Assembly: GCA_014859685.1 (NCBI GenBank)
Contig: JACUTU010000001.1
Location: 1 to 64,000 of the forward strand
Direction of reading: 5' to 3'
Length of the DNA: 64,000 nucleotides
DNA from: Sulfurospirillum sp.
Lineage (GTDB): Bacteria > Campylobacterota > Campylobacteria > Campylobacterales > Sulfurospirillaceae
The first letter of the stretch is position 1. Every line of letters starts with the position of its first letter. Made by a program: the position numbers and the translations under genes. The notes beneath the pieces were generated by a model. That model was not told the DNA's origin. It worked only from the letters and a program-made list of their open reading frames with translations, and did not search any database. Below are positions 39,433 through 43,245 of this stretch, piece after piece.

Positions 39433-39532
39433 TTTTTGTCACCTTGTGAAAAATTTGAGTTCATTATAACGCATTTGAACTTGTTATAATATGTTATAAT
39501 CGCGAAAAATAAAAATGAGGAAAGAAGAAAGT

Positions 39533-41128
39533 ATGGTAGAAGTAAATAATCTCACTATGAGATTTGCATCACAGTTACTGTTTGAAGATATAAGTTTGAA
39601 GTTAGATGTGGCAAAACGCTATGGTTTGATCGGGGCGAATGGCGCCGGCAAGAGTACTTTTATGAAGATATTAGCAAAACAGTTAGAGCCAACAAGCGGC
39701 AATGTATCGATTCAAAGCGGTCTTAAAGTGGGTGTTTTGAGTCAAAACCAGTATGCGTATGAAGAATTTACGCTTAAAGATGCTGTTTTGGTTGGTAATA
39801 AACGGTTGTATGATGCCATTAAAGAAAAAGAAGATTTGTACATAAATGGTGATTTTGAAGATGAAAAAGTCAATGATCGTTTGGCAGAGCTTGAGATCAT
39901 TTGTGCTGAAGAAGATCCAACTTATGAAGTTGATGTGACGATTGAAAAAATTCTCTGTGCTTTAGGATTTGATATCTCTATGCATACAGATCTTATGAGT
40001 TCCCTTGCTGGTGGTGAAAAGTTCAAGATATTGCTCGCTCAGGTACTCTATCCAAAACCAGATGTACTTTTTCTCGATGAGCCAACAAATAATCTTGACC
40101 TTGAAGCGATTTCATGGCTTGAAGAACAGCTTAAAAGACACGAGGGAACAATGGTTGTTATCTCACATGATAGACACTTTTTAAATGCAGTTTGTACGCA
40201 TATTCTTGATGTAGATTTTAGAAAGATTCGTGAATTTAGCGGCAATTATGATGACTGGTATATCGCTTCAAATCTTATCGTAAAGCAGCAAGAATTGGAG
40301 CAAAATAAAAAGCTCAAAGAGAAGGAAGAACTTGAGGCATTTGTGCGAAGATTTTCAGCAAACGCTTCCAAAGCAAAGCAAGCGACAAGTCGCCAAAAAA
40401 GACTTGAAAAGCTCAATATCGAAGACTTAAAAGTCTCATCGAGACGAGATCCTAGTATTGTTTTCAAAGCTAGACGAGAGATTGGCAATGAAGTTCTTGA
40501 GGTTGAAAATATCACCAAATCTTACGGAGATTTGCAAGTATTAAAAAACATCAACTTCAAGATGGAAAAAGGCGACAAGATAGCGCTCATAGGACCAAAT
40601 GGCATTGGCAAAAGTACACTTTTAAATATCTTAATGCACCAAATACAAGCAGATAGCGGTGTTGTAAAATGGGGAGCTACTATCGAGACGAGTTATTTTC
40701 CACAAAATACAACTGATATCATCAAGGGAGAAGAGCCACTTTTTGAATGGCTGCAAGGATATGATACCAACAAAGATTTGGACGAAATTCGCAAATGCTT
40801 AGGCAGGATGCTTTTTTCTGGCGAGGAGCAAAAAAAGAGTATAGAAAACATAAGTGGTGGAGAAAAACACCGTATGATGCTCTCAAAAATGATGCTACAA
40901 AAAGGCAATTTTTTAGTACTCGATGAGCCTGACAATCACCTTGATCTTGAAGCTATTATCGCTTTGGGTGAGGGACTTTATAACTTTGTAGGCAATGTTG
41001 TGTGTGTGACACATGATCGAGAACTTATCGATGCTTTCGCAAACCGCATCATAGAGTTAAAGCCAGATGGCAGCTATCTTGATTTTAAAGGTGATTATGA
41101 GGCATATAAAGAACATATAGGCGCTTAA
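39533..41128 (+). CDS. ABC-F family ATPase (YbiT-like)
   Basis: About 531 residues with two ABC cassettes and no membrane segments. Walker A motifs are G-A-N-G-A-G-K-S-T and G-P-N-G-I-G-K-S-T, and signatures are L-A-G-G-E-K and I-S-G-G-E-K. Between them lies the charged linker typical of ribosome-acting ABC-F proteins. Likely a translation factor rather than a transporter. The ATG at 39533 has AGGAAAG upstream. The next gene begins directly after its stop. Confidence 0.92.
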   Translation: MVEVNNLTMRFASQLLFEDISLKLDVAKRYGLIGANGAGKSTFMKILAKQLEPTSGNVSIQSGLKVGVLSQNQYAYEEFTLKDAVLVGNKRLYDAIKEKEDLYINGDFEDEKVNDRLAELEIICAEEDPTYEVDVTIEKILCALGFDISMHTDLMSSLAGGEKFKILLAQVLYPKPDVLFLDEPTNNLDLEAISWLEEQLKRHEGTMVVISHDRHFLNAVCTHILDVDFRKIREFSGNYDDWYIASNLIVKQQELEQNKKLKEKEELEAFVRRFSANASKAKQATSRQKRLEKLNIEDLKVSSRRDPSIVFKARREIGNEVLEVENITKSYGDLQVLKNINFKMEKGDKIALIGPNGIGKSTLLNILMHQIQADSGVVKWGATIETSYFPQNTTDIIKGEEPLFEWLQGYDTNKDLDEIRKCLGRMLFSGEEQKKSIENISGGEKHRMMLSKMMLQKGNFLVLDEPDNHLDLEAIIALGEGLYNFVGNVVCVTHDRELIDAFANRIIELKPDGSYLDFKGDYEAYKEHIGA

Positions 41129-42040
41129 GTGGAACATATCATAAACACGCTTATTCCGATATTTACACTGATTTTATTGGGGTATTTCTTCAAGCGGATC
41201 AAGTTTCCATCAACAGATTTTTGGCCGCTTGCCGATAAGTTTACTTATTATGTTTTGATGCCCTCATTACTTATATTTAAACTTTCGCGTGCAAATGTAA
41301 ATCTAGATAATACTATAGGGCTTGTAGCAACGGCTCTTTTGGCGATAGTAGTCGTTTTCGTAACGCTTGTGGTGCTCAATTTTTTTATCAAATTTGAAAG
41401 CAAAGCCTTTACTTCTATCATGCAAGGAAGTATCCGTTTCAATTCTTATGTGCTTTTAGCTTTTGTAGATTCTGTATATGGTGATAAGGGGCTAGTGCTA
41501 GCGGCCATTGTGATGGCTTTCGTGATCCCTTCTCTCAATGTTTTGAGTATTGCAACTTTTGCTATCTATACGCAAAAGGGAAATTTTTCTTTCGCTTCTT
41601 TTGTTAAAACTATCATTAAAAATCCTCTTATCCTTGCTTGTGCTTTGGGAGGCTTGATCAATTACGCAGATATAGCTGTGCCTGTTGTGATTTTCAAATC
41701 TCTTGGATTACTCAGTGCCGCCGCGCTTCCCATAGGGCTTTTGTCGGTTGGTGTGGGCTTAGAATTTAAGTATCTACATGCAGTAAAAAGCGAACTCTTG
41801 GTTTCAATTTTTGCAAAGCTTTTTTATTTTCCCTTGATCATTTATGGTGTCGGGTTGCTTATCGGTATTGATGGGATGATGCTTAGTGTTGCGGTTATCT
41901 ATGGCGCAATGCCAACGGCAGTTTCAGGTTACATCTTGGCGCGTGAGCTTGGAGGCGATGTAGCATTAATGGCGTCTATCATTACGGTACAAACACTTAC
42001 ATGTATGCTTAGTCTTTTTCTTGTAATTCCTATTTTATAA
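41129..42040 (+). CDS. AEC-family transporter
   Basis: A 303-residue membrane protein with about ten helices and the two-half layout of auxin efflux carrier/malonate-type transporters (opens L-I-P-I-F-T-L-I-L-L-G-Y-F). Such proteins export or import organic acids. The start is a GTG immediately after the ABC-F stop, so the two are coupled. The substrate cannot be told from sequence. Confidence 0.87.
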   Translation: MEHIINTLIPIFTLILLGYFFKRIKFPSTDFWPLADKFTYYVLMPSLLIFKLSRANVNLDNTIGLVATALLAIVVVFVTLVVLNFFIKFESKAFTSIMQGSIRFNSYVLLAFVDSVYGDKGLVLAAIVMAFVIPSLNVLSIATFAIYTQKGNFSFASFVKTIIKNPLILACALGGLINYADIAVPVVIFKSLGLLSAAALPIGLLSVGVGLEFKYLHAVKSELLVSIFAKLFYFPLIIYGVGLLIGIDGMMLSVAVIYGAMPTAVSGYILARELGGDVALMASIITVQTLTCMLSLFLVIPIL

Positions 42041-42085
42041 AAAATGGCGTAGAATACAGGCATTAAAAAATTAACAGGAGTAGAA

Positions 42086-42838
42086 ATGGCACAAGTTATT
42101 TTAGTCACAGGAGCAACTTCAGGATTTGGCAAAGCAACAGCAAGTATGTTCGCAAAAGATGGCTATAAAGTCATCGCAACAGGAAGAAGAGCAGATAGGC
42201 TTGAACAATTAAACGAGGAACTAAAGGGTTGTGATGTCCATACGGTTGTTTTGGATGTAAGAGATAAAGAGGCAGTTTTCAGAGCAATAGAAAATCTACC
42301 ACAGGCGTATAAAGAGATTGATATTTTAGTAAACAATGCAGGCTTAGCACTCGGGCTTGAAAATGCACCCGAAGCACATATAGAAGATTGGGAAGTGATG
42401 ATTGATACAAATATCAAAGGCTTGCTTTATGTCACTAAAGCAGTTTTACCAGTTATGATCAAAAGAAAAAGCGGATATATCTTCAACTTAGGTTCCATTG
42501 CTGGCAATTGGCCTTATCAAGGTGGCAATGTTTATGGAAGTACAAAATCTTTTGTGCAACAATTCTCATTCAATCTTCGAAACGATTTGCGAGGCACAAA
42601 TATACGAGTGACCAACATCGAGCCAGGTTTTGCAAAAACAGAGTTTTCAAATGTAAGATTTAAAGGTGATGATGCAAAAGCAAATGCCATCTATGAGGGA
42701 ATGGAGCCACTTGTGGGCGACGATATAGCAAATCTTATCTTCACAGTCTCAAAACTTCCTGCACATGTAAATGTCAATTCGCTAGAGGTAATGCCAACTT
42801 GTCAAAGCTGGGCAGGACTTTTTATAGAAAGAACTTAA
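42086..42838 (+). CDS. short-chain dehydrogenase/reductase (YdfG-like)
   Basis: A 250-residue SDR. The cofactor motif is T-G-A-T-S-G-F-G-K, N-N-A-G lies near residue 88, and the catalytic Y-G-S-T-K near residue 152. It is closest in style to NADP-dependent 3-hydroxy acid (serine/threonine) dehydrogenases. AGGAG precedes the ATG. It is downstream of the AEC transporter on the same strand. Confidence 0.9.
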   Translation: MAQVILVTGATSGFGKATASMFAKDGYKVIATGRRADRLEQLNEELKGCDVHTVVLDVRDKEAVFRAIENLPQAYKEIDILVNNAGLALGLENAPEAHIEDWEVMIDTNIKGLLYVTKAVLPVMIKRKSGYIFNLGSIAGNWPYQGGNVYGSTKSFVQQFSFNLRNDLRGTNIRVTNIEPGFAKTEFSNVRFKGDDAKANAIYEGMEPLVGDDIANLIFTVSKLPAHVNVNSLEVMPTCQSWAGLFIERT

Positions 42839-42843
42839 TGCTC

Positions 42844-42873
42844 AAAAAAAAGAGTGGAGGGAAACCCTTCACT
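42844..42873 (-). terminator. intrinsic terminator of the selenoprotein gene
   Basis: AGTGGAGGG and CCCTTCACT form a stem (42853-42873). On the minus strand a run of eight T follows. The stem begins at the last base of the selenoprotein stop codon region, so the gene has its own terminator. Confidence 0.8.
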
Positions 42874-43109
42874 CACGCCTGATATCCATTTTCTCTTAAA
42901 AGAGCAGACAATTCACCTGGATTTGGAAAGCGATTTACTTGTGACTTAGAAAAGATGCATATTCCATCTACTTCCACATCAAAAATCCCACCAGAACTTG
43001 GCACCAACAAAATATCTGCATCAGGATAGAACGACCTTATCTCTTCTTCCGCACGGAAAGCTTTTGGTCTATAACTTCACTGATTGCAATAAATAACATT
43101 TACTTGCAT
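42873..43109 (-). CDS. SelW-like (Rdx family) selenoprotein, in-frame UGA
   Basis: A conventional frame search breaks this gene at a TGA (43077-43079). Read through as selenocysteine, it gives 78 residues starting M-Q-V-N-V-I-Y-C-N-Q-U-S-Y-R-P-K-A. The C-x-x-U motif near the N-terminus is the redox site of the SelW/SelT/SelH thioredoxin-like family. Further features fit: V-P-S-S-G-G-I-F-D-V-E-V-D-G and F-P-N-P-G-E-L. AAAGGA precedes the ATG and an intrinsic terminator follows. Downstream of the UGA, CTTTCC and GGAAG form a short stem with a GTGC loop about 22 bases away, as in a bacterial SECIS. The selABCD genes are not in the window. Confidence 0.85.
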
Positions 43110-43245
43110 AAGACAATCCTTTAAAAATTTTTAGAATTTTAGCGGTTTTTTATTAATGTGCGGTTGAAAACTAATTTTTGGAATCCCAACAAATAACTTT
43201 CGCAACGCATTTTGCTTCAATTCACTAAAAAATGATGAAAAACAA

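Follow-up and report, generated by a model that had tools for sequence, protein, structure and literature searches.

The window, a 64,000-nucleotide stretch of Sulfurospirillum sp. DNA, contains a locus that we read with very high confidence as a functional gene, probably monocistronic, that encodes a SelW-like selenoprotein; its UGA at codon 11 is read as selenocysteine (Sec) by means of a SECIS hairpin, to yield a probable C-x-x-U oxidoreductase. The gene (Rdx family; 42873..43109, minus strand) comprises 78 codons including that for Sec, followed by a TGA stop at 42875..42873. As proposed from the sequence-only reading, standard gene calling misses it owing to the in-frame TGA at codon 11 (43077..43079, minus strand): the standard ORF list has no minus-strand ORF at 43109..42873, and the frame read through this TGA is intact, giving a 78-residue translation (MQVNVIYCNQUSYRPKAFRAEEEIRSFYPDADILLVPSSGGIFDVEVDGICIFSKSQVNRFPNPGELSALLRENGYQA, with U at codon 11). 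The earlier coordinates were correct and lacked only the strand; the C-x-x-U motif (C8-N-Q-U11) and the ribosome binding site (AAAGGA, 43117..43122, minus strand, 7 nt before the ATG) were both found as described. With this locus, the Sulfurospirillaceae genome gains a well-supported selenoprotein at a place left empty by ordinary gene calling, and a known pattern is confirmed.

Membership of the Rdx (SelW/SelT/SelH) family, also suggested previously, was borne out by two profile models, as the read-through protein scored above the curated cut-offs of both Pfam Rdx (PF10262; E 5e-18, 65.5 bits, cut-off 22.6) and NCBIfam NF041051 (SelTWH_Campy; 90.8 bits, curated cut-off 88), an equivalog model for Campylobacterota named "SelT/SelW/SelH family (seleno)protein". 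Searched as DNA, where the Sec site counts as a stop, the gene scored 82.3 against NF041051. Solved structures matched by sequence search were 2fa8, 3dex, 2oka, 2p0g, 2obk, 2ojl, human C17orf37 and mouse SelW. Structure prediction from 25 sequences (the window protein and fetched loci) gave a mean pLDDT of 95, with 2fa8 as the best match (TM 0.87, rmsd 1.0) and a TM of 0.73 to mouse SelW (2npb). The 78-residue protein is predicted to adopt a thioredoxin-like Rdx fold, with the redox motif C8-N-Q-U11 following the first strand (modelled strand, residues 2-8; modelled helix, residues 14-27); this fold and motif position are common to the Rdx family (PF10262; SelW/SelT/SelH; solved in 2fa8, 2obk, 2oka, 2p0g and mouse SelW 2npb), of which the window protein would be a Sec form. 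Thioredoxin-fold selenoproteins with C-x-x-U carry out thiol/selenol redox chemistry, and the predicted fold and the C-x-x-U motif indicate that the window protein most likely functions as a thiol/selenol oxidoreductase.

Support for the SECIS element comes from covariation, not from single-sequence folding. The apical hairpin, CUUUC-CGUGC-GGAAG, lies within the coding sequence (43046..43060, minus strand), and its pairs are kept, with compensatory changes, in relatives. A SECIS-like hairpin about 22 bases after the UGA had been proposed; its existence was upheld, and covariation fixed its register, with the stem 16 nt and the loop (CGUGC) 21 nt after the UGA. When the sequences were aligned gap-free at the UGA, all 38 distinct Campylobacterota sequences kept five of five pairs; the stem, 16 nt downstream of the UGA, is 5 bp long and closes a 5-nt loop, mostly CGUGU/CGUGC or AGGGU. 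Among 34 distinct 30-nt rows, 100% of the cells were paired and both sides had changed in four of the five pairs (26 such cells); covariation was 0.509 compared with 0.204 for shuffled alignments, and none of 500 shuffles reached the observed values, whereas slid partners were only 52-68% paired. Codon choice within the hairpin was likewise constrained in a set of 56 sequences: Ala6 was encoded by GCT in 55, and Arg8 only by CGT, AGG or CGG and never by AGA, the commonest codon at Arg3. Folding of the RNA after the UGA, which the sequence-only reading had recommended, gave a non-significant z of 0.12 for the window hairpin alone, in contrast to its conservation in the 38 sequences, and minimum free energy over the 54 nt after the UGA, compared with synonymous shuffles, showed no general excess of structure (family mean z 0.13). 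Since the shuffled codons came from these same constrained genes and only five pairs make up the stem, the SECIS was assessed by covariation. The hairpin rule of the family, applied to both strands of the whole window, matched the selW site only (0.47 matches expected in shuffles with free spacing and 0.03 with exact spacing), although this rule was derived from the selW family itself and the scan is hence not independent support. An Rfam search at the locus returned nothing relevant, with chance-level matches only. For the SelW genes of Campylobacterota, covariation gives a clean view of the SECIS in use.

The gene had been taken to imply that the organism makes selenocysteine, and the same genome indeed encodes selA (514.7 bits by profile search), selB (286.4 bits; adjoining selA on contig C8), selD (356.3 bits) and tRNA-Sec (56.8 bits, gathering cut-off 47). 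The selD gene (C8:14786-15700) has its own in-frame TGA (KAAGU), as does a formate dehydrogenase alpha-like gene (C8:26274-27116) about 10 kb from selA; counting selW, this brings the probable selenoproteins of the organism to at least three. Each of these two TGAs is followed by a hairpin with a 5-bp stem and a 5-nt loop (GGCTC-CGGGT-GAGCT in selD and TCGCC-GGTGT-GGCGA in the formate dehydrogenase gene), at a slightly shorter distance than in selW. Decoding of the UGA by some other route, such as near-cognate Trp or another form of suppression without selenocysteine, drew no support from any result and is very improbable given the conserved SECIS hairpin at a fixed distance, the same hairpin type in the SelD and formate dehydrogenase genes, and the occurrence of Cys at this position in a homologue (L098). 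These sequence features, along with the Campylobacter jejuni orthologue, indicate that UGA 11 is almost certainly read as selenocysteine in this organism. Several genomes of a sister genus, including G013 and G014, carry SelD without an internal stop; the two such loci read have Cys at the site, and Sec in the genus of the window would represent a Sec/Cys switch inside one taxonomic family.

The in-frame UGA is conserved well beyond the window. The nearest named relatives by protein identity were Sulfurospirillum sp. UBA12182 (67%) and S. arcachonense (60%). The gene was present in 35 of 44 genomes of the taxonomic family, each copy with exactly one internal stop, a TGA, and in 115 of 397 sampled genomes of the phylum, where every best match but one had a single TGA; the exceptional match starts after the Sec site and is uninformative on the UGA. 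All 56 members of the extracted sequence set had TGA at the site. Missing selA, selB and selC, combined with random decay in close relatives, had been named earlier as evidence against a selenoprotein; the machinery is present, and the retention of the UGA across relatives argues against random decay. A decayed pseudogene, arising from a Cys-type Rdx gene whose TGC or TGT mutated to TGA with no read-through, would require a change of only one base, and the Cys form is known in L098, yet this least probable of the readings is refuted by UGA conservation (a single TGA in the same place in every family copy found and in the 56 extracted sequences), and the intact remainder of the frame, the compensatory changes in the SECIS stem and the full Sec machinery of the genome also stand against it. 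The genome with the Cys form, G430, was considered as a machinery-free control and dropped, as it has a strong tRNA-Sec match.

The gene appears to be dispensable, since four relatives (G011, G013, G014 and G028) have selA and no match to the selW model. Another genome, G025, is 99% complete and keeps the selW UGA with an intact SECIS stem, and selA, selB, selD and tRNA-Sec were all without matches above the cut-offs. In G013, no more than 35 kb holds selA, selD and tRNA-Sec, and with such clustering a single deletion or assembly gap would account for G025. Second Rdx copies were observed in three genomes, about 370-415 bases from the first, start to start; two of these copies are without a stop (G198 and G297) and the other has one TGA (G149).

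From the gene, its family, the Sec machinery, the SECIS covariation and the predicted fold, all sequence-derived, we infer Sec read-through at this locus as well as the chemistry and substrate of the protein. SelB with Sec-tRNA-Sec would bind the short hairpin that lies 16 nt beyond UGA codon 11, so that selenocysteine would be inserted there instead of termination, and translation would end at the second UGA, behind which there is no hairpin of this kind. In the protein, U11 may attack an oxidized substrate (a peroxide, sulfenic acid or disulfide), C8 would resolve the U11 adduct as a selenenylsulfide, and cellular thiols could then reduce this selenenylsulfide.

The window gene adds a further example to a protein family known, with experimental proof, from the related C. 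jejuni, and the novelty implied by the sequence-only reading is correspondingly reduced: an equivalog model, NF041051, exists for the group, and the C. jejuni orthologue has been demonstrated by Ribo-seq and proteomics. Ribosomes occupy its transcript throughout, termination peaks where the full-length frame ends, and peptides were detected from the part downstream of the Sec site (PMC11955535). C. jejuni SelW (transcript CJnc60; NF041051) shares with the window gene its family, an N-terminal CxxU, an in-frame UGA, a length of about 80 residues and its omission from standard annotation; the window gene differs in having 78 residues and a UGA stop, and its read-through is predicted, whereas that in C. 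jejuni is experimental. SelW selenoproteins and their SECIS elements have been described in Epsilonproteobacteria, where SelW genes especially were entirely overlooked by genome annotation (PMC4607533); the name Sulfurospirillum is absent from the main text of that paper. The epsilonproteobacterial Fdh, SelD and SelW SECIS elements reported there are intragenic 5/6-bp hairpins a few nt downstream of the TGA, as in the window, with no material difference seen. Reviews of prokaryotic selenoproteins also include SELENOW-like proteins with CxxU.

The terminator noted previously was confirmed directly 3' of the gene (42844..42874, minus strand), as a hairpin at 42874..42852 that overlaps the stop codon and a U run at 42851..42844. 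It was recovered by direct folding (-12.1 kcal/mol, z -2.47; 6 of 200 shuffles were equally good) and is absent from the list produced by a simple terminator scan. Recoding of the final UGA (42875..42873) was also considered and dropped, as the hairpin behind it begins right at the stop codon, carries no G in its UUU loop and leads into the U run, a terminator-like arrangement; TAA or TAG ends most Campylobacterota relatives' genes, which further disfavours it. The gene is convergent with a short-chain dehydrogenase gene (42086-42838, plus strand), and upstream on its own strand are a HIT-like gene and a radical-SAM/SPASM gene, separated from it by a gap of 136 bases. No promoter match was found upstream on its own strand; the selW-like gene is probably transcribed alone. 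The neighbouring genes at 39515-42838, encoding an ABC-type ATPase, a Mem_trans (auxin-efflux-type) transporter and the dehydrogenase, also occur near selW in several relatives, in partly conserved order.

Relatives in the Acidimicrobiia would matter more than the window gene if our reading of them is correct. SelW-like proteins at 13 Acidimicrobiia loci have two in-frame TGAs within the motif ITYUVPU[DN][YF]S, and we consider it likely that in this branch the partner Cys has also been replaced by Sec to give a diselenide redox centre, U-x-x-U, for which both UGAs may depend on a single SECIS; they would then be the double-selenocysteine version of a family so far listed with a single Sec. UxxU is known from other families (Prx-like, FmdB and a metal-binding protein), and no report of U-x-x-U in the SelW family was found in the literature searched. 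Two of the loci lie on single contigs of more than 3.5 Mb, making assembly error unlikely, and many of the codon differences between species are synonymous. Among 11 genomes of this subfamily, selA was present in 10 and selB exceeded the cut-off in the same 10; the other, G427, lacks both at cut-off level and has tRNA-Sec. The U-x-x-U loci have a hairpin with the loop CGUGA, 17 nt after the second UGA and 26 nt after the first, and two of their relatives (L095 and L101) have CVPU at the corresponding motif.
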